Positions 35,996-64,000 of a stretch of DNA of 64,000 bases are shown here, in pieces. A model generated the notes under the pieces. That model did no database searches. It was not told the DNA's origin and saw nothing but the letters and a program-made list of their open reading frames with translations. Source of the DNA: Bolinopsis microptera (lineage: Eukaryota > Ctenophora > Tentaculata > Lobata > Bolinopsidae); assembly GCF_026151205.1 (NCBI RefSeq), contig NC_087080.1:10773837-10837836 (forward strand), in the 5' to 3' direction. Position 1 is the stretch's first letter. Each line of letters begins with the position of its first letter. The position numbers and the translations under genes were made by a program.

Positions 35996-37210
35996 ATGTT
36001 ACTAATCTTGGTTGTGTCTACGGTGTTTGGCATGGCCTTCTCCGCTGTGCTGGATCCATCTCTAACTGAGTGGAGACTGATAGAACAAGATCAGGAACGA
36101 ATCATGTTTCCTCTGAAAGACTACATTCTGGAGGTCAAATCATTCCTTCCTGACGAATACGATACGAACCCACCGTATGGCGAACTTTTCAGAACGGATA
36201 AAGCCTCTACTATGATGATGACGCTTCATGCTGGAAGCTGGAATAATAAAGTCGGCCGTTTGGTGTGGAATACCATCAAATATGACAGAGGATATGATAT
36301 TGCAGTTGAAGAGTGCGATGCCAGATACCAAGCCTACCAAAGCTTTCCCGCTGGAGGAAAGAAGGAGCAGATTTGGGCATGGAATTTTTTCGAGGATCAC
36401 CTTGAATTGACATGCGACGGAGAACTTCAGTACGAACAAAACTTTGATGAAGGTGATGTTAGTCCCAGAAAACCTGGCTTGCCAAAAAGCTGTCGGGCAC
36501 TTGGAGATGCGGATGTGGACAGGATAACTTTCAAACACATGGCAGGTGAATACATCCGTGGGATACCCAAGACCGCTAAGGAAACTACTCTGCCACAAAT
36601 TGGAACTACAGCTCCGCCCACCGAACCAAACACTGTAAGTGTAGATCCTGGCATTGATGACGTCATATACCCTGAAGAACCTATTACTGAGGAGCCTGAA
36701 GATATTGATGAGCCTGAAGTGTACCCTACGTGCGGCTGCTGGACTCCCGAGTGTGGTTACTGTTCCAACCCAGAATGTACCGTGAAATACGATCTCATAA
36801 ACTCCAAACTCGGAATCACAGTTCACTCCCACATCAAATGGAAGGAACTCAACACAATCATGCTCCTCGATGAAGACGGGAATGCTATCGGAAACTTCCA
36901 GTGGAACCGGAAAAGCATCTATCTGACCGGTTGTATCAGCTGCCAGACACCTCCAGCTATACGAAAAATCAATCCTGAAGAAATGTCTGATTGGTCGCTC
37001 AGTTTGCACGGTGGTGTGGTGACGCTAACGGTGGGGGGAGAAGTTCTTTACGAAAGTAAACTGAGGGGAAAATGTGCCGAGAAGTACAGCCAGGCTACGA
37101 GATTCGCATTCTATGACATGACTTGCGAGAATAGTTTCGACTTGTTGGCGGGGATGGAAGCAGGGGAAAGGGTCACGGCAGATTGCGCTGGGGCGTGTCC
37201 TCAAGAATAG
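35996..37210 (+). CDS. Secreted two-domain cysteine-rich protein, cluster member 1
   Basis: 404 residues in one exon. Residues 1-17 are a signal peptide (MLLILVVSTVFGMAFSA), so the product enters the secretory pathway; there is no other membrane segment. Domain 1 (to about 190) has ILEVKSFLPDEYDTNP, VGRLVWNTIKYDRGYD, EQIWAWNF and LTCDGELQYEQ. The linker (about 191-242) is acidic with Pro/Thr, unlike the other copies. Domain 2 starts CGCWTPECGYC and has GNFQWNRKSIYLTGC, GKCAEKYSQATRFAFYDMTC and CAGACP at the end. 14 mature cysteines. The ATG was chosen because it begins the signal peptide and lies 4 nt after an AG acceptor. AATAAA at 37890. The family is unknown to me; the fold looks like two related beta-sandwiches. 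Confidence 0.9.
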   Translation: MLLILVVSTVFGMAFSAVLDPSLTEWRLIEQDQERIMFPLKDYILEVKSFLPDEYDTNPPYGELFRTDKASTMMMTLHAGSWNNKVGRLVWNTIKYDRGYDIAVEECDARYQAYQSFPAGGKKEQIWAWNFFEDHLELTCDGELQYEQNFDEGDVSPRKPGLPKSCRALGDADVDRITFKHMAGEYIRGIPKTAKETTLPQIGTTAPPTEPNTVSVDPGIDDVIYPEEPITEEPEDIDEPEVYPTCGCWTPECGYCSNPECTVKYDLINSKLGITVHSHIKWKELNTIMLLDEDGNAIGNFQWNRKSIYLTGCISCQTPPAIRKINPEEMSDWSLSLHGGVVTLTVGGEVLYESKLRGKCAEKYSQATRFAFYDMTCENSFDLLAGMEAGERVTADCAGACPQE

Positions 37211-40200
37211 TTTCAAGAACGGCAAACTCTAGAAAAATGAACTGAATCTGACTGGACTTCGTTTACAATCATGTGCAGTGGATCTAGACGGTGTATTCGG
37301 AGGTATATATTTCAGAGTTTTAATTTTGAAAATAAGAGAAGTGAAATGCCGTGTTAAACCCCAATATTGTTTTTGCATGAATTTGTTCCGCGCACGTATA
37401 CCTTTTCATGAAATTCGAAAAACGACGTAAAATTGACGATCTTAGGGGATGTCTAATTTCTCAATTTGTCGAGTCTGCGACAAATCCACACAGGAGGGAT
37501 TGAGACATGAAAATAACCGTAGTACAGGATTAAATGCAATGAAATAGATATGTTCAAAAGTGTTGGTCAGAGTAAACTAAATAAAAAATATCCCTGCAGA
37601 AGATATCCCGTATGCTGCATCTTTGTAGATCAGCTGGGTCTCGTGCAGCAATCCACTCTTTCGCATAGTGATCTGGTTTACTCCAACGTTCGGAAATTAA
37701 CATTGTCATTTGTATATTTAATTAGAGTAGGTACTCAAGGTGCAATCTTTAAAAGTTTGTAATATTTTAAGTTGCTGATATTATTATTATGGCGTACGAT
37801 TTTGTTACCGGTTATAATTATGTAACATTGTAAATATGTTTAACTCTTTTCCCAATAATTTGCTTCGATTTTATTATCATAATACATCCAATAAATAGTT
37901 TTTTCTATACTTGTTTTTATGCTTATGTAATATGTGATATGAACAATTTGTACCACATTACTTCATGTTTAAACTTCCTCACCTGCACCTGTCTACGCAG
38001 AGATACACCTTTTCTACACACCACGTTTCATACTTATTCATAAATCACTCCTTTGTCGAGGAATGAATTTTACGAAGGACGATTATTTCTATTAAAGTTT
38101 ACGGCCAATCTAAGCTTTCCTCATGGCCAAGTGAAACCAAACTCAGGTAAAGTGTACCGATTCATAACGATACTGGAAACTTATGTGGTTTTTTAAAGTT
38201 AGGAAAATGGAGACCTTTTAATAGTCTTCTGTAAGGACCTCGATCACCTTTGGATTGCAGGTTGCACGCCTAGGTTTTTTCACCATGTCGAAAAAATAAA
38301 AAACCACATACTCCAAAGCATCTGATACAACTACTTCATCCAATAATATGTTAGCTCCTCTTCGATAAATTTGTGAGCAAAATTGTCACGATAGAAAGAA
38401 ATAGAATAGGTAATAAATAGTTGGAATTAAATTTGTGGGATGGAATTTAATTTGTGGATGAAATTGTCACGATAGAAAGGATAAGGAATAAATAGATGAA
38501 ATCAAAGCTAATGTTTGGCTGAGAGTCCATTACCGAATATCTAAAACAGTCGATATTGCAAACCTTGTTCAACCTTGTTCAACTCTGCAAAAGTTCCCTG
38601 TTTGCAGGCACTTTACCGATTTGCCAATAAACCCTCTTTTGTTATGTGATAATAACAGATACATTGTCTTGCCCGAACTTGTTGATCGCTAAAATAAAGT
38701 TCATGGCTACAGACCAGTTCAGTTTGTTTGTTGGGTTTAATTCAATTGGGGTTCCACTAAAATCAAGTCAGAAATGTAAAGAATGCGATATAAGTGATAT
38801 AATGGACGTCTGAACCGCCGTACTTTGGTGATCTCGCCAGTTCATAGTTTACGATTAGTAAACTCAAAATATTGGACAAATTATTGGACGATTGTTTTAG
38901 AAATCTGAATGTGATCGATTCGTTGATTTTTAGTTTCTCAGTACGTATGGCAAGTATTTTAGGGAACAGAGTTGAATTTATAAAAATTAAGTTATTCTGG
39001 AAGTAGGAAACAGTCATCAACAGGAATAGGCACGGTAACTTTGGGTTTTGTGGCGTGAGGGCGAGTCCGTCGAGGTAAGTTTTAACTGTTTGGTGGGCTC
39101 GGGCGAGTGGCAAGCTCTCCTCGCTCCTCTCAGAGAATGCTAAATTTCTATTTCTTAATGCCTAAGACATGCTGCTTACGTTGTTGGTAGGGGTTACTAT
39201 TTTTTAATTTAAAACATGCCAGCTTTGAATTGTTCAGAAATCAATTGCATCTCATTAAAATAAAAGTGAAATATAGGGTAACACAAAGAGCATTTCCGAT
39301 CCAGATTAAATTTTCAACTTTGTGACATGCATGAAATATAGCACTAACTGATAGTCCGTTTTTTTTGCTCAAGTAGACTAAAAATTTATATTCTATGAAA
39401 CTCATAAAACAAATATGTGGGCCGTTATGTACGTGAAACTTAAAATTATTGACAAGTGGCGAGAGCTGCAGTCTGCACAGTGCACACCCTAGAGGCCATA
39501 TATTTATGTTTACGCCAACCAGTTAAACTTGTTCTTCATACTTTCATGATGCCGACGTGGTTGACTTAACTTCATGGAATTTCCCAATTTAGGCTACATT
39601 TTTCACTCGTTTGTATTATTGAAATAGTGTTCCGGCCGACATTTTTCGTTGAGCTTGATATTATGAGAACAGCCGTATAATTTTCAGGGCGTTTAGTGGG
39701 GCCGTTTTGCTCCTTTTCAAAAATTATATCCCGCCAACAATTTCTGCTTATAGAATTCTCAGATTTCCTAATTTATTGCATAATCTTCCTTCCCGATACG
39801 ATTTCTCGATGTACATGTTATATCTGATTTCTATAATTTTCGTGGCTTTACTCTGTCACTCCTAAGATTAACGTTACAAGCACATCGTGAGCTGTAATTA
39901 TCATTATCATAACCCATTGCTTGCTACACGTTGTATATCACGTTCTCCCGCAAATTAAAGGAAATACAACGTGTGTCAACTCATTGCTCAATTCTATATC
40001 TGAAAGCGTTTTTATCAAAAAATTCTGAAATAGGAAGTTCAAAGGCCCAAAGGGGCCTCGAAGGACTTTTACCGGGCCAGAAAATTCATTCCACGGCCCT
40101 GACAATTTTACTATGTATCAAGGACTTAGGTGCTATAGGGAAAATTAATTGCGTTCGATATAACACCAAAGATCACGATATTTTTATACAATTTGAAAAT

Positions 40201-41290
40201 ATATTTAACCCCTCAAAAAACAGGCAGGATCATGTTTTTATTTGCCATCCACTGCCATCACGTCGATGGCAGAGGTCAAATTATTTTTGTTCTACATTGA
40301 ACAAAAGGTGCTTCATTTTGCCGTTGCAGAGGTCTACCTCAATTATTATAGGTCTACCAAATTTACCTCTTAGACAGGTCTGAAGACATATCTTCAGAGG
40401 TCCATCTCAATTTCAGGAGTTTATATTTAGCATTGTAAACTCGAGCCTAAGGCGTGGATGAAGCCTAATAACTCCGTGTTGTTATTTACACAAATGTTAT
40501 TACTGTTACTCAATCATTCTCAATTAGACAACTGCTCTGCTCCAAGGTTATTAGTCCCAATAGATATTGTGAGCCTAGAGTATACCTGTTAAAAGTTCAA
40601 GAAACTTCCTATGATACCCCTTCAGTGCATACTATAAACATAGTACTATTAATATTCTCTTCCTGCTGTTTTCTCTAATGTTATTTGGTAGTGCTGACAT
40701 TATATAAGTCTCGTCCTGTCTCCGTTGGCAGAGGATCAGTGAATATAGCTTGTTAGCGTGTGTCCGTCTATCACCAATTACAGAACAGTGTGATGCAATA
40801 ATTATCTTTAAGTAGGAATACAGTTAACACTTATAATAGTCTAGCTTTATAATCACCTTTCCAGCTTAGAATTTAATCTGATTAAGTCATGTAGTGTCAC
40901 ATTTGATGATTATTTCAAAAATGAATAAAATTCTTGATTTTTCTGAATGGACTCAGTGATGACAATGTTCTAATAAAGGTTAATAGATAAATTATAATTT
41001 AAATTACAGTAATTTGTAAAGAGATGAGTAACTTTACTTGTCTTTTACTGTTTACTGAATAGCAGATTTAAACGAGGCAACAACTTTTAGCAAATCTTTC
41101 GTAAAATCTTTGTCCGCAGTCTAGAATAGGGACTAGTGAACTATACCAAAGCCTGAAAATACTTGCCTCTAGATTTCAAGCTTTTAGCTGCCAAGTTTTC
41201 GCAACAGTAGTACCTGTTATTACTTTAGATAACGTTTACTGCCGTGCGTGTGTATTAGATAACATCGATTAAAACATTGCTTTTAGGATC
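37211..41290. other. Spacer between cluster members 1 and 2
   Basis: Possible polyadenylation signal AATAAA at 37890. A small duplication (gaaattgtcacgatagaaag) occurs at about 38387 and 38462. The 150-codon ORF at 39931 has no recognisable domain and poor composition, so I do not call it. A TATA-like tatataag at about 40700 lies 590 bp before gene 2 and could mark a non-coding first exon. Confidence 0.4.
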
Positions 41291-42451
41291 ATGATTGTGC
41301 TCATTGCGTTGCTGATGTTTGGTCCTGCCCTCTCTAGTAAGATAGACCCCTCCCTCGCTGATTGGAAACTTATCACCGAAAACCTCATCACCATCAATGT
41401 CCCCATGAAAAAGTACATCCTGGAGATAAAATCCACGTTACCAGAGGACTTTGACACTAACCCTGTCTACAATGAAACTATAAAGGTGGACAAGAGCACG
41501 ACAATGATGTTGGTGCTCTATGACGGAGAGAACCAAGTGGGGCGTCTGACCTGGAATTCTATTCACTATAAAAGGGGGTATGACGCGTGGATCGAACAAT
41601 GCAACATATTTTACGTTCCCTTCAGGAGCTTTCCATGTGGAGGAAGGAAGGACCAAGTTTGGGCCTGGAAATTAAACAAGAATGATGTGGAGCTGAGTTG
41701 TGATGGTGAGCTGCAGTATTATCAGCACTATCTTAATGGAGATAATTGGAAGCACCTGAGGGAGAGATGTCGGAGACTTGGTCAAGCTGATGTGGACCGG
41801 GTGGAAGTGAAGTTCATGAAGAACTTTTATATCCGTGCTGTCTCTAGAGATGATAAAATTGAACCGACCCAAGCGAAGGTCACAACTCCTCCCACCACAC
41901 CAACTCAAAGACCAACCACCAGTGCTCCTCTTCCCGGTCGTCTTGCTTTCGCCAAAGATTTCCCGACCTGTGACTGTTGGACTCCCAAGTGTGGGTTCTG
42001 CTCCAATATGGAGTGCACTGTGAAGCAAGATCTTTTCAGCTCCTTCGAGGGAATTGTAGTGCGTTCTAAGCTCACTCGAGGTAAACCCAACTCGATTGCA
42101 CTTTTTGGCGAGGAGGGAGATCTTCTCGGGAACTTTCAATGGGACCTTTCCGGCATTTTCCTCACTGGCTGCATTCGGTGTCGGCCGTCGGTAGCTTTGA
42201 GGCGTGCTAAAGCAATCATTGGTCTGACACCCTGGGCGTTTTCCATGAAGGATGGCGTGGTTGAGATCAAGATAAATGGACAGACTTTGTTTAGACGGAC
42301 ATTAAAGGGAAAATGCGCGGAGAGATACGGAAAAGCGAAACGATTCGCATTCTACGGTATGAATTGTGAAAATAGATTCCGTTTGCTGCCGGAAATGGTG
42401 CCTGGGGCAATGCTCACACCGACCTGTAGTAATACTTGTTCTCTGTATTAG
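41291..42451 (+). CDS. Secreted two-domain cysteine-rich protein, cluster member 2 (most divergent)
   Basis: 386 residues, single exon, signal peptide MIVLIALLMFGPALSS. The architecture is the same: domain 1 with ILEIKSTLPEDFDTNP, VGRLTWNSIHYKRGYD, QVWAWKL and LSCDGELQYYQ; a basic Thr/Pro linker (about 194-224, for example TTPPTTPTQRPTTSAP); domain 2 with CDCWTPKCGFCSNMEC, GNFQWDLSGIFLTGC and GKCAERYGKAKRFAFYGMNC. It carries one extra cysteine (FPCGGRK), giving an odd count of 15, and the C-terminal CAG-CP of the others is TCSNTC. The domain cores are kept, so it is probably functional but specialised. AG acceptor (ttttag) 4 nt before the ATG. AATAAA at 42686. Confidence 0.9.
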   Translation: MIVLIALLMFGPALSSKIDPSLADWKLITENLITINVPMKKYILEIKSTLPEDFDTNPVYNETIKVDKSTTMMLVLYDGENQVGRLTWNSIHYKRGYDAWIEQCNIFYVPFRSFPCGGRKDQVWAWKLNKNDVELSCDGELQYYQHYLNGDNWKHLRERCRRLGQADVDRVEVKFMKNFYIRAVSRDDKIEPTQAKVTTPPTTPTQRPTTSAPLPGRLAFAKDFPTCDCWTPKCGFCSNMECTVKQDLFSSFEGIVVRSKLTRGKPNSIALFGEEGDLLGNFQWDLSGIFLTGCIRCRPSVALRRAKAIIGLTPWAFSMKDGVVEIKINGQTLFRRTLKGKCAERYGKAKRFAFYGMNCENRFRLLPEMVPGAMLTPTCSNTCSLY

Positions 42452-43712
42452 ATTAATATAACAGCTACCTAGATTTAAATTGTTACTGAAATAATGTTAC
42501 TGCATGTATGTTCTATCTGAAAAAAAAAAACTGGAACAAAACGGCAAATTTGAATTGTATATTAATTATTACTGAAGCATGCTTATCATTAAAGCATGTT
42601 AACTATGTATGGGTTTTACATTACTGTTGTATATGCAAAATTAAAATAATATCTCTATTAAATTTATTATGGGCAGGAAATCTACAATAAAAATATATGA
42701 ATTTTGTAAATTTTATCATTAATTTTATCGTGCTATTATAATCGTCAGTTATTGTCATTATTTGCTTGGTCATTGTCATTCTTATCGATCGTCTTAGGAA
42801 GTTCTTAGCGGTGCCTTTCGACAAAAACATCTAAGTTAATAGAAAACCGCGTGTTTCGTAACGTTTCCATCTGCAATTATCCCTGTAATGCAATAAATTA
42901 TTGAGTCATCAGTCAAATGGAGGTTGTGAACTATCTAATCAGATTTCGATTATTGATATCAGAATTTTATCTGCAACTCTTGAGCAAATTAATAATGTTA
43001 ATTTTGCAAGATATTTGATATCAATTATATCAAATATCTTCCATAACTTGGAAAATTTTTCAAAATAGAGCAGATACCGCAGATTTAATTTGCAGTGTCC
43101 AACCTATTTAGAAAAGGGGAAGGATGGCAATCTTCCAGAGCAGGCTAGGTCACTTCTATTTTGATTATCAATTCTCTACCAATTACTGAGTACGGAAATG
43201 AAAAGTGTGATGAAATATTAAACAATCATGTCGATCAGTGTTTCATTCAATCACAATTCATCTTTTAACCACAAACACTAATCATATATTGGGAACCGGA
43301 GAGTTTTAGCCCACTTCTAACGCCGTACAAGTTGAAATACCATCAACAAGAGAGAGTAATTCTTTACTGATATAATATAAAAACTTACACCCACTTTTAG
43401 TCTGCATACTACTATCTACTAGTAATGAGAGGCAACTGTTGGTTCTACCTCTACCCCTTCCGGCTATGGCTAATGTAGATTAAAGAGACAGAACTACAGA
43501 AGGCTCCGCAGGGTTTCTATCAAGTTATCAATAACTACTGAGATACTTTGTCATTGGGTTAAGCTAGGTATCACTTGTGAAGTGTCGTCACGTGTCAAGT
43601 GTCGTCAGCAGTTCCACTCTGCATCTGGTCCAAATTACTCTGAAGAATGATCTCTACAACAATACTCGGACTCCCTTGATCTGCTACAGTGCTACTGAAA
43701 TCACTACATGTA

Positions 43713-43952
43713 AGGGCGCGTTCACATATTACGTCATGAAGATTGAAGAGTTTAGTATCCTGACATATTAGTATCAAGGACATTTGCCAAGTTTCATTGT
43801 TAATCAGATTGATTTGAAAAATTGAATCATACAAATATTGGCCAAAATTCAGGTATTTTTGCTGACGTGAGAAAGGGAAAGACCTCCCCCGTCAACAACC
43901 GTCAGCATTTCCAAACTCCCTCGGCTACTGACGCAACATGTGAACGCTCCCT
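43713..43952. mobile_element. MITE with AGGG(C/A)GCGTTCACAT ends
   Basis: Left end AGGGCGCGTTCACATATTAC at 43713 and the complement of a close match (agggagcgttcacatgttgc) ending at 43952. TA is found next to both ends. The inner block with gtcaacaaccgtcagcattt is shared with 14480-14620. No transposase. Confidence 0.7.
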
Positions 43953-44810
43953 AGCAATAATGAGATCATTTATTGGCTAGTACAACGAGCTGATGCTGCG
44001 AAACAGGAATTTAGAAACCTACAAAAGGTTTTGGCTGTCCACTCCCGGCAGCCTCATTTGTATGGGATTTCCGTCATCAATTTTTAACTTTCAAATCCAA
44101 AATCTTGAGCTGGTGATCCAAAATTGGTAGACGTGTAAACTGGTGTTTGAACGAATTAGGAAGCACAGATTTGGTTTCCACTCCCAAAGGTTTTAACACA
44201 AATTAATTTAATCAGATTTTTAGTAATATATCCCTAAATTAAGTCACACGATGATTTAAGATTAACACCGATTAACGACATATTTAAAATTTAGCCTTGG
44301 TAGTCCAAGTGGTACATGTGAAATGTTACTTCCAGAGGAAGGGAATATAAGTTTTTTTCTCTTTTCCGATTGGTGAGAAGTAAATTTCTGCTTTTGAAAA
44401 AATATGTAAATTTTTTCAAGTTCCAGAAAAATGACACATACTTCCACTGTATCACAGCGATTGCAATGCCTTATCATAGCGTTACCAGACTTCAGAATTT
44501 ACACTTTACTCAAAAAAGTACCGAATAAAATTTAAAAACGGGTAATTTCTGAAAAATAATTAATCTGGGGTTATTTTTGTAAAATAATTAATATGGCTCC
44601 ACGTTACTCATGCAGTCTCTTCCGCGGTTCAGTTATGCAGAATTGCTCTCTTTTCAAGTTTTTCGCTATGCAATAGAATCTCAGACATCCAAGACTTTAC
44701 CCTCTGGCTTCTTTGTCAATAAATAAATTAACACTAACAGTATAATAAACAGCTCTTTATTATACCAAATACGTTTTCTCAGTTCTAAAACAGTTAGATA
44801 TTTAATAGAT

Positions 44811-44961
44811 GTGGATTCTGGTGGGGAGGTGAGGCATATTTGTTTTTACACTAGTTAAAAATTTACCAATCAGCTTTGACTGTTGACCAATCAAACCTGA
44901 GAATCACTGTCACGGGTCAAAAAGCACAAGCCTCACCTCCTGGCTCCTCGCCAGAATCCAG
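44811..44961. mobile_element. Foldback MITE, copy 2
   Basis: gtggattctggtggggaggt gaggc at the left and gcctcacctcc...gccagaatcc at the right; same family as 32798-32903. Right arm has an internal gctcctc insertion. Confidence 0.7.
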
Positions 44962-46013
44962 ATTTATAGCAAAACAAGCTATCACCCACTTTAAATACAA
45001 ATAACAAGTCCTGGTCACTATAAAATACCGTCTGGCTCCTTCTATGAAATGTCTGCGTATTTAGGTTTATTAGGAATCTTTTTAAAGCTAGGCTCTAAAC
45101 CAATTTGCTTCTGTTTTTGCGGTCTGGACATATGACTGATAAGAACATTTCTACTCATTTTAGATTGTTGGACTTTGATAAAATCTTTTTGGCTTTAATT
45201 CACCAGTCTTTGAGACAGGCCCGCGAGCTGTGCAAAATAAGTTCATCATAAATAAACAATACTAATCAAGTTTAAATAAATTTACCGGTGAATCTAAAAT
45301 TTTAATGGAGAAATGGAGATGAGCATGTTACTTCACAAAGGATTCGATATTCTTCAAATTACGCTTTTTGAATTAAATTCCTTAAATTCTTCCATTTATT
45401 CAAGTTACAACCAAGGATAATTTTGAATCTAATTCTATGATGCACATTCTAAAAATAGCAACTAACAGCTAGATTAATCCTAGAATCATCCGCACGATAC
45501 CGCACATCCTGCTTAAAACAAAGATAACGATTAGAGATGACTCCTTAACAGGAGATACGATCAACAGTTACCGTGTCATTACACGTGTTATGACCATCAC
45601 GTCACTATTATGTTCACTGTGTGCAGTAAAACGGTAGAGTTGGGGCTTCCCTCTTCGCCTGGCCTCTCTCCTACGTTAATAACTGTGACATATGTGTCGG
45701 GCCGAACCCACTGTTGCGATCCTGTATTTAAGGCTGTGGTTGGAGCCGATTTATCATCAGTTCTTCGTTTGTCGAATTCATTTAGTTTGGCCAATTTATT
45801 TACGCTAATTTAGCTTAAATTCTCTTGGATCTTGTCTCTTGGGTTGTTCATAATCATATTATGATCAACATCTCTTTCGTTGAATTTCTGACTTCAGTTT
45901 TCATGAGCTTTCCAATTTGATGATATTTTGTTTATAATATCGTATAATTTGGAGATTTGTTCATACCAATATATTTAATAATACACAAATTAAATAACTT
46001 TTTACTCAGAAGC

Positions 46014-47192
46014 ATGATATTCTCCATTGTTTTGGCGCTCATTGGTACAGCTCTCTCTGCTGAACTGGACCCCTATCTCACTGAATGGACACTTCTCACA
46101 AAGAACGAGGAAAGAATCATGTTTCCTCTGAGAGATTACATTCTGGAGGTCAAAGCATTCCGTCCTGATGTGTACGATACAAACCCACACTATGCCGAAC
46201 TTTTCAGAACGGACAAGTCCACTACTATGATGATGTTACTGCACGCTGGAGGCTGGAAGAAGAAAGTCGGCCGTTTGGTCTGGAATACCATAAAATATGA
46301 CAGAGGATACGACGTGAACGTTGAGGAATGTAATGCTAGATACCAAGCCTACAGAAGCTTCCCCGCCGGAGGAAATAAAGAGCAGATATGGGCATGGAAT
46401 TTCAACGAAGATGATGTTGAACTGACATGCGACGGAGAACTGCAATACTCCCAACATTTCGATGATGGAGAAGTTACTCCCAGAAAACCTGGCTTGCCAC
46501 AAAGCTGTCGGTCACTTGGAAATGCGGATGTAGACAGAATAATCTTCAGACACATGGAGGGCTATTACATCCGTGGAATACCAAGGAGTTATAAAAAAGA
46601 AACTACTCCACCCCCTACAACAACCAGATATCTTACAACGGAGGTACTTTATACTACCACTGTGCTCTCTAATACTGATGATATAGTACATAAAGTTTAT
46701 CCTACATGCGACTGCTGGACTCCAGAATGTGGATATTGCACCAACATGGAATGCACTGTGAAGCAAGATCTCGTCAACTCCAACAAAGGTATCGAGGTTA
46801 CTTCAAAGCTCAGGAGGAAGAGGCTCAACTCAATTGTGCTGTACGATGAAGAAGGTGACGAAATTGGAAGATTTCAGTGGAACCTCAGGGGTATCTGGAT
46901 GACCGGCTGCATTGCATGTCTGACTCCTGCTGATTTGAGACGTGCTAAATCGGAAGAAGGACAGACGACATGGTCCTTTTCCCTAAAAGACGGAATAGTC
47001 CGAATTTCTATCAACGATGAATGTGTGTACGAGCAGCCTCTACTCGGAGAATGTAAAGAAAGATACAGTAAAGCTAAGAGGTTCGCTTTTTATGACATGA
47101 CCTGCGAGAATACATTCACATACAGACGTAAGGAAATGGAAGCTGGAGACAGAATTACACCGGACTGTGCTGGCACATGTCCTGAACAGTAA
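46014..47192 (+). CDS. Secreted two-domain cysteine-rich protein, cluster member 3
   Basis: 392 residues from the ATG at 46014; an in-frame ATG at 45957 would add 19 residues that spoil the signal peptide, and an acceptor (actcag) sits 4 nt before 46014, so I use the later start. Signal peptide MIFSIVLALIGTALSA. Domain 1 has ILEVKAFRPDVYDTNP, VGRLVWNTIKYDRGYD, EQIWAWNF and LTCDGELQYSQ. Linker (about 190-226) is Thr-rich (ETTPPPTTTRYLTTEV). Domain 2 has CDCWTPECGYCTNMEC, GRFQWNLRGIWMTGC, GECKERYSKAKRFAFYDMTC and CAGTCP. The second domain shows the internal homology best: WSFSLKDG...CVYEQ mirrors WAWNFNED...LQYSQ in domain 1. Confidence 0.9.
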   Translation: MIFSIVLALIGTALSAELDPYLTEWTLLTKNEERIMFPLRDYILEVKAFRPDVYDTNPHYAELFRTDKSTTMMMLLHAGGWKKKVGRLVWNTIKYDRGYDVNVEECNARYQAYRSFPAGGNKEQIWAWNFNEDDVELTCDGELQYSQHFDDGEVTPRKPGLPQSCRSLGNADVDRIIFRHMEGYYIRGIPRSYKKETTPPPTTTRYLTTEVLYTTTVLSNTDDIVHKVYPTCDCWTPECGYCTNMECTVKQDLVNSNKGIEVTSKLRRKRLNSIVLYDEEGDEIGRFQWNLRGIWMTGCIACLTPADLRRAKSEEGQTTWSFSLKDGIVRISINDECVYEQPLLGECKERYSKAKRFAFYDMTCENTFTYRRKEMEAGDRITPDCAGTCPEQ

Positions 47193-47648
47193 TTTACAGG
47201 GTTTTTGTTGAATGAAGAATAATCTTATGCAAATTTTTATTGATGAACGTTTGATACGGTTTATTTATTCAATTATATCTTATGGTTTGGAGTGAAATAT
47301 TTGCTCAATTATGTAAATTCAGTTTTTATGGTGTACATTTTATTTAAAACTTGCTTTAAGTTCAATTTTTGTAATTGGTTGGTTTTATTTAGATGTAAAA
47401 AAGTAGTTCAGTTCCTTCTCTTCCTCTCTTCCTCTCTTCTTTTCTCCTTTTCTCCCTCCCATGATATCTTCTGTTTCATATTTGGAACACGACTGTTAAT
47501 TATTCAAACTTTTCATCTGGACGTGAAACAAATTCTTCATATTATGGAGCTAGGGTGTTGAAACGGTTCCATCCCCTTACATAATACTCAACGAATGTAA
47601 TAGATTTGTTGTTTTGTTGTATGTATATTGTATAATGTATGTTTTGTT
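47193..47648. other. Spacer after cluster member 3
   Basis: AT-rich with a pyrimidine-rich run (ttcctctcttcctctcttct, about 47418-47460). No gene recognised. Confidence 0.4.
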
Positions 47649-47702
47649 GTATGTATAATGTATGTACGACCACGTGGGCGGTCGTTCATACATTATACAT
47701 AC
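47649..47702. repeat. Hairpin with about 23-bp arms around cacgtgggcgg
   Basis: gtatgtataatgtatgtacg and its near-complement cgttcatacattatacatac face each other; one mismatch. It begins the tandem array that follows. Confidence 0.75.
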
Positions 47703-48859: not shown

Positions 48860-50561
48860 CCTTAATTCCCAAAAATTTGGGCGACAAAAAATTTGAGCGG
48901 GCCTCTCGCCCAAATTTTTTGCAGACCAAATTAATTGCATAAATCTTTTCCGTCTGCTAAATTTATTTGCTAACCAAAGTTTTGGCATTTGGCCTGTGGC
49001 CCTGAAATCTATAGAAATATGGCTTTTTCTTCATATCCAAGTGAAATAATATTTGAAATTTTAGTTTTCTAATCTGTTCATTCATGGCTTGACCAAGTAA
49101 AAAGGCTTATATTTTAAATGAATAGAAATAACTGGAATAGCTAACAGCGCTACTAATAAAACAAATGGCTAGAGGTACGGATAGATAGAGATTTAAACAA
49201 GATCTGCAAATGGATTATCATCCACCGTAAAGTCTGATCTACAAGCATCAGTTATACCCGACTTCTCAAAGCCTTTCCTTATGTCATCTGGCCTCCCTTT
49301 TAAATATACAAAAAGTTCGTTGATCCAACGAGCGTGTACTTCACGGATCACTGTCAAGCGGGTATCAATTTTCACATTGTCTGATGAAACTCCTCCATTG
49401 AGCTGACACACTATGTTTTTCGCGTACCAATCTTCGTACTTATTGCGCATGAATTTCTTAGCCAGTCCATTGATAGATATGTCCAGGGGCTGTAGATGAT
49501 GGGTCATATTAGCTGGAGCCTGGAACTTTCTGTAGGATGCAGTTGTTGGCTGTCGTCAGATCTTTTAGTCATTTAGTGTCTGTGTGTGTTGGGCCCGAAA
49601 CACATCTGATATCAGTAGCGCTTTCTGCTCAGGGTTGTTGATGGAGGCTCGAACTGATTCTATGTGGGGAAGAAGGATTTTCTCAAAGAACTGGACACTG
49701 GTCAGGGTATTAGACCAATGGTTGTGGGTATGGGTAACGTGGAAGCTGGATGGGAACTTGAATTTGGGCTCACAACGCTTTGTTTTACCCTGATAGATTA
49801 TCTGAACAGGCAAGAATTCTCCCGACAACGTAACAGCGAAGTTACCCGTAATCTGTCTCTTATCCTTAGTCCCACTGACACCGATAACTTTAGCGCCTTT
49901 CGGTGCCAAGGTGTTGCTACTGACAGAAACGTAAGTTAGAGGAGTCTGGTCGTGATTAATTACCAAGGAATCTGGTATGCTGTGATCCTTGACCAGCGGA
50001 TGAATCTCCCGTTGAAAGCTAAGTTTGATCTATTTGAACATACCCTCGGGTACAGGAAGCTTCGCAGTTGTTGCTCTACGTCTGACGAGTTTAGGGCGGG
50101 TTTTCTGATAGTGGTAAAGAATCTGTCTCACATGACGGTACTCTATACTGTCCCTATCCAACAAATCTGGAAAACGAGCTTCCAAAGCCCCGACGATGAT
50201 TCCCCGGATCACACTTGCACTTATCACAGCTCCTTTCATTGTATATCTATCATTTTGTACTGTGCCATCATCACTGTATTTTTTAGTAGTTACTGGGCAG
50301 ATCGTAAATTTCATAATATGAAACAAGTCAGACTACCACCTACATGCTTAAAATTGAAAGCAAAATGACTGGAATAATAAGGAATAATAATGAACTAAGG
50401 CAAATATCTAACAGAAATTTTAGTGGAAAATCGTTCATTTTTCGAAGAATTTGTGCCCAAATTTTCGGTCGCCCAAATGAGTTCAAATTTTCTGCCCAAA
50501 TTTTTCGGGCTCAAATAAATTTTGCTCAATATAATGGCACACAAATTTTTGGGAACTAAGG
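48860..50561 (-). mobile_element. pogo-like DNA transposon with TA target duplication
   Basis: Inverted ends CCTTAATTCCCAAAAATTTG at 48860 and its near-complement (one mismatch) ending at 50561, with TA on each side (48858-48859, 50562-50563). Subterminal gcccaaatttt motifs repeat at both ends. It encodes a minus-strand DDE transposase remnant. It splits the 300-bp tandem array, so it is younger than the array. Confidence 0.85.
49193..50326 (-). pseudogene. pogo/Tigger-type DDE_1 transposase, broken
   Basis: On the minus strand the product shows KLPVPEGMFK, an in-frame TAG, then the DDE core LVINHDQTPLTYVSV (first D), DKRQITGNFAVTLSGEFLPV, QIIYQGKT and ALLISDVFRAQ (second D). After two frame changes near 49500-49580 it continues with MTHHLQPLDISING, WYAKNIVCQL and EVHARWINELF. 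This is the usual pogo/CENP-B-related domain order. The N-terminal HTH part is only partly visible. One stop and at least two frameshifts make it inactive. Confidence 0.85.
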
Positions 50562-50690
50562 TAATTTGCACGTGGGCGGTCATACAAACAAACATAATTC
50601 TTTGAATTACAAGTAAGATAATTCTTTGAATTATACTAATGATAAGATGGCTGGCTTTATAATAACGTATATATGGCTGTTTTGACAAAA

Positions 50691-51294
50691 CTGTAGGGGG
50701 GATAACACCGACCGCAAATCTATTCATGCAAAGTCAGTTTATTTAATCAGGAAGGTGAAATGTGCCTCTACCGCTGGAGAGGTGCTAAAATTGGAATTCT
50801 CTAGGTTTTGCAACGATAGATCAGGGTGTCTTGTCTTTACATACTTGGTGTCTCGCTTAGACTCAGACTTGGGTGCACTGCATTTTGGTGTCTGGTTATA
50901 ATCAGAAATTGTTGTGAAACTAGGGATGATGATTCCAACAAGGATAGAAAAACCCATAACCTGGCTACCTTATTGCATGCACAAAAGCAATTCTAACTGC
51001 AAATCCACATTTTAGTGAAAAAACTGATATGAATCCGATCTGCACAGAATTGTATGTGGTCTGCAGAATTGTATGTGGTCTGCGCAACTTTCCTCAAGGC
51101 ATGGATTCCAATTTTCGCCCTAAAATAATGCGAATGATTTGTTCGGGGAATTATCAGTGATGACGCTAATGCTCAGTGTGATTTACTTCTAGGGTGGCAC
51201 CTGAGAGGTACCTAATCAAAGCAACAGTCCAGCTGCACTGTATAAAGATGCCGCGTCAGTGTCCGAAACGTTCAGACGGAGGTCTTGACGCCGA
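50691..51294. other. Spacer, nothing recognised
   Basis: No gene. A short direct repeat gcagaattgtatgtggtctg occurs at about 51044 and 51062. Confidence 0.4.
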
Positions 51295-51440
51295 GATCTA
51301 TTAACGCCGACTGCATTTTCCGCTTTGCACCCCTCGCGATGCAGACTGTAGTCTGAGATTTAATTCACGTCAGGATACACTTTAAAGAATACAATCTGAG
51401 GTCTGCGTTCTAGCGGAAATCCGTTCCGGGTTATTGCGAA

Positions 51441-51620
51441 CAGGGACGTAGCCAGGATTTTTCTTTGAGGGGGGCTGTCGGCGAGCGAAGCGAGCCGACG
51501 CGTCCAATCAAGCTGTGGCAGGGGTCTGGGGGCGCAGCCCCCAGCGGGGTCCAGGGGCGGAGCCCCTTGGCGGGGGCTAGGGAAATTTTTTGCGAAACAG
51601 GGTGTTTTAGACGACATTTG
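51441..51620 (+). mobile_element. hAT terminal fragment (GC-rich)
   Basis: Begins CAGGGACGTAGCCAGGATTT and continues with gcgagcgaagcgagccga and gggcgcagcccccagcgggg palindromic blocks. Related to 12678-12751. A further caggcacgtagcc followed by a C run is at about 51974-51999. Confidence 0.6.
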
Positions 51621-52656
51621 GCATTAAAGAAATTTGTAGGACAGCAATAAACTGGGATTGAAAAGAATCAAGTACTCACGTAAATTTGGTAACTTCACAA
51701 CAGCAATCTGCATTCTCCAATCAGAATTTACGACTTACTCAGGCCTCATCGTCTTAAGATTTTTACATTTCCTACGGTCTAGGGGACACTATTGACTATA
51801 ATTATAGAAGTCTTCTAGAATGTTTGCTTGGATTTAATGACATATATTTACTAATCCACAGTTCAAATCTTTGACTGACTGCAGTCATAAACACAGCCCA
51901 GTTACCAGGCGACCATGGGGACTAGGGGGCTTATCTTTTTTCTGGGGTTCGATTTTTTCGCATTCGCAATCAGGCACGTAGCCCCCCCCCCCCCCCCCTG
52001 GTTTTTGTAACTTAAATACTAAATAGGCACAGTTATCTTATGAAGCTGGTTACTTTTTAAAATGAACTATTTTAGCATGCCATGAGAAAACAATTAGGAA
52101 CGAACAACTTTTAAATCCGTATATCAATTAAATTATTATCAGTAGCAATTTACCAGCAAGTCATGCAAGAGTTAGAAATTTTAAAGTGGTTATATTTCAC
52201 CAAGATCGAATGATATATAGTCAGTGTGATCCAATTTTTGACCCAATCCTGAAAAATGGAAAAAAGCTAGTTCATTGCTATTAGTCTTGAATATATGTGG
52301 CATTTCTATGGAAGTCCTTATACCTTATCTGCAGATCTATCATCTAACACTGGAATTGCCTCATAACATAATAAAATCATCTCAGTTCGAAGAAGTACAG
52401 AAACTCTTCTGTTTGGGATAAAGATCTAAATACGCGCTCCGTCTTCTGTTTGCCATTTTATATTTCGAATAATAATGTTGGAATTCGAAATTGCCCAATG
52501 GCAATTTTAAGAACTTTTTTGTATTTGTGGAATTGTATACCAATGAGCCGTAGAGTTAATATTTCTAATGTTCAGAATTCTCGATGCAACCATTTTATAA
52601 AAATACGATACTTACTATAGAATCTCTTTAAACCTGAAAACACGGTATCCAGGAAT

Positions 52657-53891
52657 ATGTTAGTTCTCGTCCTGACAGCACTGTTTGGTGCAGCCTACTC
52701 TGCTGAACTGGACCCCTCTCTGACTGAGTGGAGACTTGTCACACAGAACGAAGAAAGAATCAAGTTTCCTCTTAGAGACTACATTCTGGAGGTCAAAGCA
52801 TTCCTTCCTGATGAGTACGATACGAACCCACCGTATGCCGAACTTTTCAGAACAGACAAGTCCACTACTATGATGTTAATGCTACACGCTGGAAGCTGGC
52901 AGAAAAGCGTCGGCCGTTTGGTGTGGAATACCATCAAATATGACAGAGGATATGATACTGCAGTTGAAGAATGTGACGCCAGATACCAACCCTACCAAAG
53001 CTTTCCCGCTGGAGGAAAGAAGGAGCAGATCTGGGCATGGAATTTTTTCGATGATCACCTTGAATTGACATGCGACGGAGAACTTCAGTACGAACAAAAC
53101 TTTGATGAAGGTGATGTTCATGCTAGAAAACCTGGCTTGCCAAAAAGCTGTCGGAAGCTTGGAGATGCGAATGTGGACAGGATAACTTTGAAGCATATGG
53201 CAGGTGAATACATCCGTGGTAGACCCAAGGTAGAACCTACTACTCCACCTAAAGCTACAACACAACCAAAAGTTACAACACAACCAAAAGTTACAACACA
53301 ACCAAAAGTTACAACACAACCAGCTCCAGTACCTCCGAGTGAAGATCCTGGACTACCTGATGATAACAAATTCGCTGAACTCTATCCCACCTGCGACTGC
53401 TGGACATCAGAATGTAACTACTGTGCCAATATGGAATGCACTGTCCAACATGACCTGATCGGAGATGACCTAGGGGTCCAGGTTACGTCTAAACTCGGCT
53501 GGAGGATATTGAACTCGATCGTGCTGTATGATGAAGAGGGAAATACTCTTGGAATGTTCTATTCCAGTGGAGTCTGAAAAAGATTCTTCTGACCGGCTGT
53601 GTCAGCTGTCAGACACCTCCTGCTATACGACGTATCAAACCTGGCACTGTAGATCTGTGGGTTTTCTCTCTGGACATGATTGACGGGGTGCTAACACTGA
53701 AGCTTAGTGTCGGTGGATCTGTTGTGTACGAGAATGCACTGGTCGGAGAATGTGCTGAGAGGTACAAGAATGTTGACAGATTTGCTTTCTTCGACATGGC
53801 CTGTGAGAATACGTTTACATACGTGAAGGAACAGATGGTGGCTGGAGCTAGAGTTACCCCTAACTGTGCTGGAACTTGTCCTAGTTCTTAA
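52657..53891 (+). pseudogene. Secreted two-domain protein, cluster member 4, frameshifted in domain 2
   Basis: Intact from the ATG (signal peptide MLVLVLTALFGAAYSA) through domain 1, the linker and the CDCWTSECNYC start of domain 2. At 53556-53562 the sequence ggaatgttctattccagtgg has four extra bases (tatt) compared with member 5 (ggaatgttccagtgg). This gives a stop at 53575-53577 after 306 codons. Downstream, the remaining domain 2 continues in a shifted frame to TAA at 53889-53891 with no other defect, including CAERYKNVDRFAFFDM and CAGTCP. The linker has four TTQP units against two in member 5. AG acceptor (atccag) 4 nt before the ATG; AATAAA at 53952. The break is recent; a truncated secreted domain 1 could still be made. 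Confidence 0.85.
53258..53329 (+). repeat. 18-bp coding minisatellite (TTQPKV) in the linker
   Basis: aaagttacaacacaacca occurs three times in a row after a variant aaagctacaacacaacca. The paralogue at 58254-58289 has one copy after the variant. Confidence 0.9.
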
Positions 53892-56276
53892 AGAGACAAT
53901 CGATATAGACTAATTACTCTGAAATATATAGAACATTTCTTTGCATTCCAAAATAAACTAATTACGACCTATAATTACTTCTTAACTCATACTTATGAAC
54001 TGATTATAAATAGTTACAAGCCAAATTAAAACACAATTTTGCGTGTGTCGTCCTCATTCAATTCGCCTAGCTGTTAATTTTTATTGATCATTGGAAATGT
54101 AAATTTATTATTGTTTTTGATGACAGTTCTAAATCACTAATTAGTGGGATTTCATTAACCTCTATAATATCCAACTCTATAACGTATTATGAAAAGTACT
54201 GATAAGATCAGTTTCAACTCATATACCAGTCCGTTCCGTCAGTCCAAATTTGAAATGACTCCCAGGACCCGAATGTTCCTCCTATTTGGAGTGCAGTGCA
54301 CTAACAAAGAAAACCTTCCCAGCTACAACCTAACAACCAGGATATATCTTATAATTATAACCTGGCTTTTAAGGTGACCTCCAAGCTCAATTTTATGGGT
54401 TATACGGAAATGATATCAGGAACTTCTGTACGGGGTTCGTGTGGGTGCTGTGCATTCTGCAACTGCTCGAATATGCACGTGTTATGATTACTTATTATAT
54501 AAATCGATCACCTAGTTTCATGGCCCACGCTCTTAACTCCAATATTTTCTAGGAAAGTCTGCTTATTTTAGTATGGTGATTCATTATCACTGAAGATCTG
54601 TATGTTGGCTAGACACTGTCATTATGCGTTGCACCGGAAAAATTTCTATGTGGACCAACTGTGAACTGTCTGTCGAAAAATGATATTAGAAATTAGATAA
54701 GTCTTAAAACAAATCTGAATACGTCTTTAGAGGGTGGAAATAAACAAAAATGTGAACCACACCGTTTCTACTGTTTTATTATTATTGAATCAGATCAAAA
54801 AACCGGGTTTGTTGTATTTAAAAGCTTAAATTCATTTTGACATTTTATTATACAGATTCATAAAACAGATTGGCTGTGCAGTAAAAAACAATAAACCCAC
54901 TACTGATCGGCGACAGTGACCGTTTTTTCTACCCTTTAATTTTAAACCAACATACTGTCCTCTGACGAATTGTCCAGTTTCATTCGCCTCCATGCAATTA
55001 TTGTCTCCGCTCGCATCATACAAATTTATTTCGTTCAACGTTTATCAGCGTTGGCTGATTTGTACAGTCAACCAGTGCAGTGTTTTTATAGCTAGACAAC
55101 TCCAACCCTGGTACCCTGCCATCCTAAGCAAGTTGAGCAATGGGTTGATTGTAGTGTAATATCGGTTGGGAACATTGCCTCAAACATGGACATTCTTATT
55201 GTGAAGAGAACTACCGAGGCCATGTGCAGTGCAGAATGCTTTAAAACACCCAAAGTGATAGTTATCGATTATTGAGTAGAGATGTTAAAAGCGAGCGGCG
55301 GTTATAGCTAGATATGGTCATGGCCTGTTTTTAGTCTTTTCAGCCACATCTAGCAGAAACCAAAGACACGGACGCTTTGAAGAATTCGCCGGTAATTATG
55401 GCTGGGTTTACTAGGAAGTCTCGGTAATTTTGTGCCTCCTTGCCCAAAAGTAGAAAACTACTGGGCTATTCCTCAAAATCCAATTACGGTAGGACGGAAG
55501 CGGCATTTCATGGCGATGGTTCTAGTAATGTTGATCATCATAGCGATGGTTCGAGTTATGCAGATCATCATCGCAAACTGTTCCACAAAAGTCTAACTAT
55601 GGACTGTTTTGTGTCTCCTTGGCCAGATGATACAAGCTGAACTGTTTCCCAAGAGTCCTATCACATTGTTTTGTTTCTCCCTTGCCAAAAGTAGAGAATT
55701 GATGAGCTGTTCCCCAAAAGTTCGACTAACAAGTAACATGAACACTGTTTTGTTTCTCTTCGTCAAAATGTAGAAAATTGCAGAACTGCTCCCCAAACTT
55801 CCCACTAAAATATAATTGTGGATGCTGAGACCAACTACAATCCGCACGGTTAAACAGAATAGCAGTACAACCTGAGAACAAACAGAGAGAACAGTCCTGA
55901 TAAAGCTATGAGCACGTGTCAGTCACGATGTCAGACTCGATTCTGTCAGAACAATCAGGTGACCCTAGAATAGTGGTGATTATACCAAAGTCAGAATTAC
56001 TAATATATAGCCGAAAGAACGTACTTTCTGACAGATATGCAAGGTGTGAGGCGTCATTCTTCTGTCTACTTATTAACCGGGTTCAATAGCTCCTACCTAC
56101 TACCTAGATCTCTAGATACCTCTGTTTTCATATTTTAAAAGCTCGCTGACCATCTTATGACTTATAATTTAACCCTCTCTCACCGGGTGAGCTAGTCCAT
56201 CCAACATTCTAATAATAATAGAATAATGATCTAGAATAATAATCTAATATAATAATAGAATAATGAGTGGTCATTG
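53892..56276. other. 3' flank of member 4, copy A
   Basis: Shared with copy B at 58847-60885. Contains a 30-bp repeat (gatggttc-ag-ta-tg-agatcatca, 55515-55575) and degenerate 60-75 bp repeats built on tgttttgt-tctc-cttg-ccaaaagtaga (about 55600-55830). The short ORFs here are frameless between copies, so I do not call genes. Confidence 0.5.
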
Positions 56277-57068
56277 ACAAGATCTATTTACGCCGACTGC
56301 TTTTTCCGCTTTCCACCCCTCACGATGCAGACTGTAGTCTGAGATTTAATTCACGTCAGGCTACACTTCAAAGAAGACAGAATACGATCTGTGGTCTGGG
56401 TTCTCGCGGAAATCCATTGCGGTTATTATTCGTGTCGACTGTCACGGGAAATCCAATCCGGGTTATTACGAATGCATTCAATTTTGTATTCGTTTCGACT
56501 GTCGCTACAGCTATATCATAACCTTCTTGCTAACTCTACGAGCGTTGGATTATTTGTTGGTATTCCTTTCTCCTGATTAGGTTTTTAACTATTTGATTTA
56601 CCTTTTAATTGGTTGTTCTCTTAAAACTGTCAACTAAATGTAATTTAGGTGTAAACTGTAAGCTTTTTTGTAAATTAAATACTAAATAAGCACAGTTATC
56701 TTATCTTCTTATGAAGCTGGTAATTTTTAAAAATGAACTATTTTAGTCAGGGGTGTGAATGATTTTATTCATGGGGGGGCCAAATTCTAGATATTTTTGG
56801 CGCTTCGCGCCACAACCTGAGTTTCAAAAAAGTTTCGGGGTAAGGACAAAAGGAAATTACGGCATGCGCGGAATCGTGATTTTTCACGTTTGCCGTGACA
56901 AATCGCGATTTTTTTCAGATCCTGGCCTCGCGAGAAATCAGGATTTTTTCAGTTCTCCGCGTCAAATTGCGCATTTTCCTTTAAATCTGAGGAACGAATT
57001 CGCGTATTTTCCTTAAAATCTGCGGGCCAAATTTCACGTTTTCTATATAAGTATATGAAACCAATCAT

Positions 57069-57371
57069 ATCCACAGCCTTCTGAATGTAGGTATGGACTT
57101 CAGAAAACCGAAAAAATATTTTCGGCTCATAATGATCAGGGTAGCATGAAACATGAACAAAAGTAGTTTCCAGAAAATCTTTGAAAAATTTTGACTTACA
57201 AAATTTTCGGTCCGAGTCATTCTCGATACGTACCTCTGAAGGCAGAGTTCATCCATAGCCTTCCGAATGTAGGTGCGGACTTTGAAAACCGAAAAAATAT
57301 TTTTAGCTCATAATGATCAGGGTAGCATGAAACATGAACAAAAGTAGTTTCCAAGAAAACTTTGAAAATTT
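57069..57371. repeat. Two copies of a 183-bp repeat
   Basis: atccacagccttctgaatgt (57069) and atccatagccttccgaatgt (57252) begin the two copies, both continuing to gaacaaaagtagtttcca. Lies 300-580 bp upstream of gene 5 and is absent upstream of gene 4. Confidence 0.8.
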
Positions 57372-57649
57372 TTGAAGAAGTACAGAAACTCTTCTGTTTG
57401 GGTTAAAGATCTAAATACACGCTCCGTCTTCTGTTTGCCATTTTATATTTCGAATAATAATGTTGGAATTCGAAATTGCCCTATGGCAATTTTAAGAACG
57501 TTTTGAGTATTTGTGGAATTGTATTTACCAATGAGCCGTAGAATTAAATAATCATTTCTAATGTTCAGATTTCTCAATGCAACCATTTTATAAAAATACG
57601 ATACTTACTATAGAATCTCTTTAAACCTGAAAACACGGTATCCAGGAAT

Positions 57650-58846
57650 ATGTTAGTTCTCGTCCTGACAGCACTGTTTGGTGCAGCCTTCTCTGCTGAA
57701 CTGGACCCCTCTCTGACTGAGTGGAGACTTGTCACAAAAGATCAGGAAAGAATCAAGTTTCCTCTTAGAGACTACATTCTGGAGGTCAAAGCATTCCTTC
57801 CTGATGAGTATGATACGAACCCACCGTATGCCGAACTTTTCAGAACGGACAAATCCACTACTATGATGATATTACTGCACGCTGGAGGCTGGAAGAAAAG
57901 CGTCGGCCGTTTGGTGTGGAATACCATCAAATATGACAGAGGATATGATATTGCAGTTGAAGAATGCGATGCCAGATACCAAGCCTACCAAAGCTTTCCC
58001 GCTGGAGGAAGGAAGGAGCAGATCTGGGCATGGAATTTTTTCGAGGATCACCTTGAATTGACATGCGACGGAGAACTTCAGTACGAACAAAACTTTGATG
58101 AAGGTGATGTTAGTCCTAGAAAACCTGGCTTGCCAAAAAGCTGTCGGGCGCTTGGAGATGCAGATGTGGACAGGATAACTTTGAAGCATATGGCAGGTGA
58201 ATACATCCGTGGGAGACCCAAGGTAGCGAAGGAACCAGAATCTACTACTCCACCTAAAGCTACAACACAACCAAAAGTTACAACACAACCAGCTACCACT
58301 GAATCACCTGAACTACCTGATGATAACAAATTCGCTGAACTCTATCCCACCTGCGACTGCTGGACATCAGAATGCAACTACTGTGCCAATATGGAATGCA
58401 CTGTCCAACATGACCTGATTGGGGATGACCTAGGGATCCAGGTTACGTCTAAACTCGGCTGGAGAATAATGAACTCGATCGTGCTGTATGATGAAGAGGG
58501 AAATACTCTTGGAATGTTCCAGTGGAGTCTGAAAAAGATTCTTCTGACCGGATGTGTCAGCTGTCAGACACCTCCAGCTATACGTAATATCAAACCTGGC
58601 ACTGTAGATGGGTGGGTCTTCTCTCTGACTATGATTGATGGGGTCCTGACGTTACATCTCAGTGTTGATGGATTTGTTGTGTACGAGAATGAACTGGTCG
58701 GAGAATGTGCTGAGAGGTACAAGAATGTTGACAGATTTGCTTTCTTCGACATGACCTGTGAGAATACGTTTACATATGTGAAGGAACAGATGGTGGCTGG
58801 AGCTAGAGTCACCCCTAACTGTGCTGGGTCTTGTCCTAGTTCTTGA
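57650..58846 (+). CDS. Secreted two-domain cysteine-rich protein, cluster member 5 (intact)
   Basis: 398 residues, single exon, signal peptide 1-16 (MLVLVLTALFGAAFSA). Domain 1 is 17 to about 188, the Thr/Pro linker about 189-231, domain 2 about 232-398. Mature cysteines are at 106, 139, 165, 235, 237, 242, 245, 250, 302, 305, 353, 370, 391 and 395 (14, even). The domains share a pattern: LVWN / FQWS, WAWNFFEDHLEL / WVFSLTMIDGVLTL, GELQYEQ / FVVYENE, and DADVDRITLKHM / KNVDRFAFFDM, so I infer an ancient internal duplication. No catalytic motif is evident. Extracellular binding is the simplest guess. AG acceptor (atccag) 4 nt before the ATG. About 270 bp upstream are shared with member 4, likely including its promoter or intron. 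Confidence 0.92.
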   Translation: MLVLVLTALFGAAFSAELDPSLTEWRLVTKDQERIKFPLRDYILEVKAFLPDEYDTNPPYAELFRTDKSTTMMILLHAGGWKKSVGRLVWNTIKYDRGYDIAVEECDARYQAYQSFPAGGRKEQIWAWNFFEDHLELTCDGELQYEQNFDEGDVSPRKPGLPKSCRALGDADVDRITLKHMAGEYIRGRPKVAKEPESTTPPKATTQPKVTTQPATTESPELPDDNKFAELYPTCDCWTSECNYCANMECTVQHDLIGDDLGIQVTSKLGWRIMNSIVLYDEEGNTLGMFQWSLKKILLTGCVSCQTPPAIRNIKPGTVDGWVFSLTMIDGVLTLHLSVDGFVVYENELVGECAERYKNVDRFAFFDMTCENTFTYVKEQMVAGARVTPNCAGSCPSS

Positions 58847-63884: not shown

Positions 63885-64000
63885 AGTGATTATACCAAAG
63901 TCAGAATTACTAATATATAGCCGAAAGAACGTACTTTCTGACAGATATGCAAGGTGTGAGGCGTCATTCTTCTGTCTACTTATTAACCGGGTTCAATAGC

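Follow-up and report, generated by a model that had tools for sequence, protein, structure and literature searches.

The ctenophore Bolinopsis microptera carries, within a 64,000-nt stretch of DNA here called the window, part of a tandem array of genes whose products combine two related domains, A and B. We assign a probability of about 0.5 to the reading that these genes form a ctenophore family, the products of which are secreted, rich in disulfides and two-headed, have a galectin fold and bind or cross-link their partners. The usual member would consist of a signal peptide, a galectin-fold (concanavalin-A-like) sandwich A, a mucin-like linker of Thr and Pro, and a related sandwich B. Each sandwich would hold a ligand, either a glycan or a glycoprotein of the matrix or mucus, and the flexible linker would let a single molecule bridge two partners, comparable to tandem-repeat galectins and laminin-G pairs. 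The fold would be stabilised by disulfides and the linker may be glycosylated; mucus, an adhesive or the mesoglea are the presumed sites of action. New copies would come from local tandem duplication, and A and B halves would be re-paired by recombination at the repetitive linker.

Five paralogous open reading frames, m1 to m5, lie on the plus strand between positions 35996 and 58846 of the window (Table 1), in agreement with the original prediction, which had been made from the letters of the window. Its designation of m2 as a divergent copy also holds, as the A domain of m2 has 50-51% amino acid identity to those of m1, m3, m4 and m5, and 44-51% to those of the other genes listed. Copies m4 and m5 had been called near-identical. 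They are close relatives, with 91% amino acid identity in domain A, but an identity of 86-98% between their coding regions, determined in 100-bp steps, is less than that term implies. Both are borne on tandem units of about 5 kb, which together with the variable linkers and the broken frame of m4 substantiate the predicted combination of duplication, linker variation and loss of frame. The frameshift in domain B of m4 may be an error of the assembly or a recent lesion, or m4 may be a pseudogene. The nearest relatives of m3 are copies L005, L011 and L012 on contigs C5 and C6 and L006 on C9. Other features of the window include a 909-aa frame with a reverse transcriptase match (RVT_1, E 2.1e-29) on the minus strand at 61135-63864, a LINE-like element directly 3' of m5, and a 118-bp stretch at 63883-64000, of which a 99% identical copy (55973-56090) lies between the 5-kb units. 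Weak matches were seen between m3 and m4 (49565-49966, minus strand, DDE_1 transposase, E 0.0044, below the cut-off) and in a 196-aa frame at 28352-28942 on the plus strand, which has a sub-threshold Utp12 match only (E 0.0039).

Table 1. Location of family members and other features. Positions without a contig name refer to the window.
Feature	Position	Strand	Description
CAG, 3' splice-acceptor-like	35989..35991	+	ends 4 nt before the m1 ATG
m1	35996..37210	+	404 aa; A 36050-36571, linker 36572-36721, B 36722-37201
m2, divergent	41291..42451	+	386 aa; A 41342-41848, linker 41849-41959, B 41960-42442
m3	46014..47192	+	392 aa from ATG; A 46065-46586, linker 46587-46697, B 46698-47183
Two ~5-kb tandem units bearing m4 and m5	51294..60844	+	repeat pairs D4-D6, D8-D10, D13, D15; spacing 4844-4986 bp
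m4, frameshifted	52657..53577	+	306 aa; frame ends within B; remainder of B open in another frame, 53562-53882
m5	57650..58846	+	398 aa; A 57701-58222, linker 58223-58342, B 58343-58837
L001, L002, L003, L004	C9:10840163-10850079	same as m1-m5	continuation of the array beyond the window
L014	C8		layout A-A-(Ser-Gly linker)-B
L024-L026	C13:11.64-11.76 Mb		B after long Pro-Val-Val-Pro-Val-Asp-Pro-Glu repeats of differing lengths
EF-hand array, 15 copies listed	C5:17013039-17026356		head-to-tail
EF-hand array, 11 copies listed	C13:11082760-11094295		head-to-tail
EF-hand array, 8 copies listed	C1:21999721-22006881		head-to-tail
EF-hand array, 7 copies listed	C3:3415799-3427318		head-to-tail

The array is larger than the predicted cluster of five. 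All five genes are present, but four further copies follow and the array ends about 12 kb beyond the window, which brings nine members onto one strand within about 40 kb of C9; L006 lies 85 kb farther. The genome searched comprises 264.65 Mb in 232 contigs, of which 13 are chromosome-sized and sum to about 258.07 Mb (97.5%), the next contig measuring 198 kb. With m5 as the query, 49 matching stretches were obtained at E ≤ 0.01. The 21 matches to a divergent A query fall into 20 open frames. With a B query the count was 43, which takes in split matches and fragments. A and B are joined in one unbroken frame in 17 of the 20 A-bearing frames; the exceptions are m4 and L012, which are frame-broken, and L004, in which A is present without a B match. 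An additional partial A occurs on C11 (L028). Further members of the family are B-only loci, spread through the genome. Sixteen B-only or linker-B loci were examined, and at 11 of them, none among L022-L026, a CAG precedes B within about 10 nt, which gives these 11 the look of downstream exons in spliced genes. Two copies of a B fragment (L032, C8:9303457, and L033, C8:9315475) are situated 12 kb apart and have identical translated frames. Searches of GTDB genomes with the B profile, and of viral contigs with the B and the A profile, revealed no relatives; the B searches relied on short conserved peptide patterns. In the open-licence ctenophore literature surveyed, none of the titles and abstract openings listed describes this family, and it may have been described earlier elsewhere.

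The four intact proteins of the window (m1, m2, m3 and m5) share one architecture: a hydrophobic leader, domain A of about 174 residues, a Thr- and Pro-rich linker, and domain B of about 162 residues. The linkers vary between 37 and 50 residues and the mature proteins contain 14, 15, 15 and 14 cysteines, respectively, both as anticipated. Across the family, eight cysteine columns are conserved in all 30 aligned B domains, and three in 20-21 of the 22 aligned A domains. B starts with a cysteine knob, CxCWTxxCxxCxxxxC. The conserved cysteines presumably form disulfides. The shared signal peptide of the original prediction corresponds in all four intact members to a hydrophobic, signal-peptide-like N-terminus, in which, as read by eye, small residues (AxS) mark where cleavage might plausibly occur. 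On the Kyte-Doolittle scale no 19-residue window of the four mature sequences exceeds 1.47. Judged from these properties, the members of the family are probably secreted.

A and B had been described as related domains, and profile comparison indicates that they are. Local alignment of the A and B profiles with hhalign gave a probability of 76.8% (P 2.1e-5). Reversed controls stayed at 0.2-0.4%; forced global alignment of the same profiles reached only 11.7%. The profiles used for these values were clean; an iterated B profile had absorbed some A domains.

The original prediction could not match the proteins to a named family, and the database searches, profile searches included, led to the same outcome. 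No Pfam family was found for four window proteins at E ≤ 10, and neither NCBIfam, searched with three of the four, nor the PDB sequences, searched with m5, gave a convincing match. Comparison of individual domains (30 B, 22 A) with Pfam (E ≤ 1) and with PDB sequences had the same result. Weak NCBIfam and Pfam matches (Baculo_RING, Paxt-1_C, PAW, DUF4327 and others) had E values of at least 0.016, concerned one to three members each and were attributed to chance, as was a PDB match to LlaBIII (E 0.58).

Structure prediction covered A by itself and B as part of a weak full-length model. Domain A was modeled template-free from nine rows of window sequences, five A and four B; with the B rows in the alignment, the model assumes that A and B are homologous. 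It attained a pLDDT of 73.8 and a pTM of 0.74, and one of the five models a pLDDT of 36.5. Of 1445 PDB matches (E ≤ 10), the best 50 consist of 49 galectin or Charcot-Leyden protein structures and the fungal lectin CGL3; they are mostly entries of galectin-10 and galectin-8 and hence do not represent 50 independent matches. All 50 have a probability of 1.00, and the best E is 1.3e-4; TM scores range over 0.49-0.60 when normalized by target and over 0.41-0.52 by query. A search of BFVD with domain A returned a mixed list in which galectin- and ConA-like proteins occurred among many others. The full-length model of m3, calculated from six rows, had a pLDDT of 52.9 and displayed a similar order of strands and helices in both halves. 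The first PDB matches listed for it are the two-domain galectins 8 and 9. Next come galectins of viruses and nematodes, along with the laminin-G pairs of Gas6/laminin and neurexin; a glycosyl hydrolase and botulinum receptor-binding domains are further ConA-like proteins among the matches listed. TM scores by query were 0.17-0.28 among the best 50 listed. We infer that A adopts a galectin-fold β-sandwich, for which the model is of moderate confidence, and that B may fold likewise, as suggested by the weak full-length model and by the relation of B to A.

At the level of sequence, membership in the galectins was ruled out by the absence of a PF00337 match, of the motifs and of profile similarity. 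None of the matches obtained at E ≤ 1 for the 30 B and the 22 A domains belongs to PF00337. The genome contains 47 matches to PF00337 at E ≤ 1, 36 of them above the cut-off, none at a locus of the family. Galectins bind sugar through the motif HxNxR ... WxxExR and are not known to have a signal peptide. Neither HxNxR nor W(G/N)xExR occurs in the four intact proteins; FRP and WxxEIR-like residues are retained, as read by eye, in the genome's own galectin frames at L052-L054. When compared by hhalign with five galectin domains from two loci of the genome, A reached a probability of 0.1% and B one of 0.5%, values that the reversed controls equalled. As no sequence relation to galectins was detected and the motifs are missing from the four intact proteins, sugar binding cannot be assumed. 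What the family would share with the tandem-repeat galectins galectin-8 and galectin-9 is the predicted arrangement of two related galectin-like sandwiches and a linker; it differs in its signal-peptide-like start and its many conserved cysteines. Laminin-G/LNS pairs, such as laminin LG4-5, Gas6 and neurexin, are secreted pairs of ConA-like sandwiches. In the matches of the full-length model they rank behind the galectins, but none is in the best 50 listed for domain A, and the laminin-G models of Pfam matched neither the proteins nor the A and B domains. Of the galectin loci, L054 (C4:1272980-1274572, minus strand) has a 745-aa frame with four galectin-model matches and an extra C-terminal part. 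On C10 a Pfam galectin match and a B-domain match are 12 kb apart (C10:9316756 and C10:9329077), possibly by chance.

The genes had been predicted to be single-exon, which is correct for the coding region but has to be restricted to it because of a potential splice acceptor immediately upstream. In m2, m3, m4 and m5, as in m1, a YAG ends 4 nt before the ATG. A CAG or TAG lies 1-7 nt ahead of the ATG in 18 of the 20 A-bearing genes, at exactly 4 nt in 12 of them, the background being a YAG within 12 nt before 29.6% of 2221 ATGs of the window; the 20 genes are kin and not independent, and the binomial P is therefore overstated. At least seven pyrimidines are found in the 12 bases before the YAG in 14 of the 20 genes, as opposed to 12% of the background. 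The coding part is a single exon; the transcript probably contains more than one. The acceptor may serve trans-splicing just ahead of the ATG or, alternatively, join a 5' untranslated exon. In Hormiphora, also a ctenophore, a trans-spliced leader has been reported on 56% of Iso-Seq reads (PMC8527503).

The sequence upstream of the acceptor also bears on the origin of the dispersed copies. Upstream of the ATG, the likeness between the C5 copy (L048) and the C6 copies (L046, L047) extends past the acceptor for about 310-330 bp, and that between the two C6 copies for about 560 bp; L006 has 90-120 bp of upstream sequence in common with them. In the same search, the likeness between m3 and L046-L048 stops at about the start and stop codons, which is compatible with retrocopying. 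Because the likeness among the C5 and C6 copies extends past the acceptor, retrocopying is disfavored and these copies likely arose by duplication at the DNA level.

The original prediction hinted at a rapid diversification of the immune type, which the substitution rates do not bear out. For pairs with dS < 1.5, the remainder being too diverged or saturated, the median dN/dS was 0.17 in A (37 of 136 pairs) and 0.24 in B (20 of 120 pairs). The highest value, 0.83, belongs to L001 and L002 in A at a dS of only 0.03, and no compared pair reaches 1. Such low pairwise values give no sign of pervasive positive selection.

The two halves of the genes have had different histories. Between m1 and m5, dS is 0.23 in A and 1.43 in B; between L001 and m5 it is 1.65 in A and 0.18 in B, and between L001 and L003 0.03 in A and 0.73 in B. 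In 100-bp steps, m1 and m5 are 86-99% identical over 57750-58249 and 51-69% from there to the end of the coding region, with 31-39% upstream of the ATG. L001 and m5 display the reverse, 63-82% to 58249 and then 88-98% to the coding end. Trees were calculated for 15 genes, leaving out m4, L004 and L012, in which A or B is incomplete, and two L014 genes. The A tree groups m1 with m5 (support 93/96) and rejects m5+L001+L002 (AU 0.008), whereas the B data reject m1+m5 (6.6e-15) and L001+L003 (0.010); as the clades tested were picked after the identities had been seen, these P values are indicative. In the B tree, m5+L001 has a support of 82/98, which falls to 58/73 when L002 is added. Members of the family have swapped whole halves, with breakpoints at the linker. 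The conflict between the trees and the steps in identity would be accounted for by gene conversion or unequal crossing over at the repetitive linker.

Photoprotein genes provide a second example of tandem arrays in this genome. The EF-hand arrays listed in Table 1 have a spacing of about 0.94-1.03 kb across most of each array (150 of 491 candidates were scored). One EF-hand copy on C1 (L045), a 207-aa frame, is a photoprotein, with matches to berovin at E 1.1e-123 and to mnemiopsin 1 at E 4.6e-121. In Mnemiopsis, at least 10 photoprotein genes are reported, in single-exon tandem clusters under purifying selection and concerted evolution (PMC3570280); if the remaining EF-hand copies of Bolinopsis are also photoproteins, their number would exceed that figure. 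The photoprotein arrays resemble that of the present family in being head-to-tail with one coding exon, but they encode unrelated EF-hand proteins, and in Mnemiopsis the photoprotein family evolves in concert, in place of the re-pairing of halves.

The genes may instead encode structural or adhesive components of mucus, mesoglea or colloblast glue that self-associate and are cross-linked via disulfides and a glycosylated linker, with the number of copies serving bulk output. We consider this possible, if doubtful. The many conserved cysteines, the low dN/dS and the long low-complexity linkers of some members (Ser-Gly and Pro-Val-Val-Pro repeats) are consistent with it, and the photoprotein clusters, which were suggested to permit fast production (PMC3570280), offer a parallel. 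The colloblast and tentacle candidates of Mnemiopsis are enriched for signal peptides, and those of the colloblast also for ctenophore-specific genes, yet the colloblast candidates are not enriched in low-complexity regions (PMC6278862). Divergent members such as m2 also speak against pure dosage. A decaying array of largely inactive duplicates appears very improbable. The frameshift of m4, the broken frame of L012 and the A without B of L004 point in this direction, but A continues unbroken into B in 17 of the 20 A-bearing frames, dN/dS is low and the YAG before the ATG has been kept in 18 of 20 genes. Moreover, two Mnemiopsis photoprotein genes that were frameshifted in a draft assembly turned out to be full-length (PMC3570280).

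Immune recognition by opsonin-like lectins, whose halves would bind microbial surfaces and acquire new pairings by exchange, would make use of the predicted lectin-like fold, the tandem array, the swapping of halves and the variable linker. We regard it as unlikely. The low dN/dS, with its maximum of 0.83, speaks against a classical arms race, yet not against recognition as such. The immune repertoire of Mnemiopsis has been described via known protein domains; as the word galectin has no occurrence in its main text, that paper neither supports nor excludes the present family (PMC11797021).

The reading that we prefer, a family of secreted, two-headed galectin-fold proteins, would allow a further step, which we think rather unlikely: a large galectin-fold family built within a comb-jelly lineage and devoid of galectin signatures, its heads continually recombined at the repetitive linker, might constitute a germline combinatorial repertoire of bivalent binders for recognition or prey capture. 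The family is also a clear example of genes trading halves at a low-complexity linker. Now that its fold has been predicted and its architecture, gene content and mode of evolution have been described, a role of this candidate family in mucus, adhesion or immunity becomes testable.
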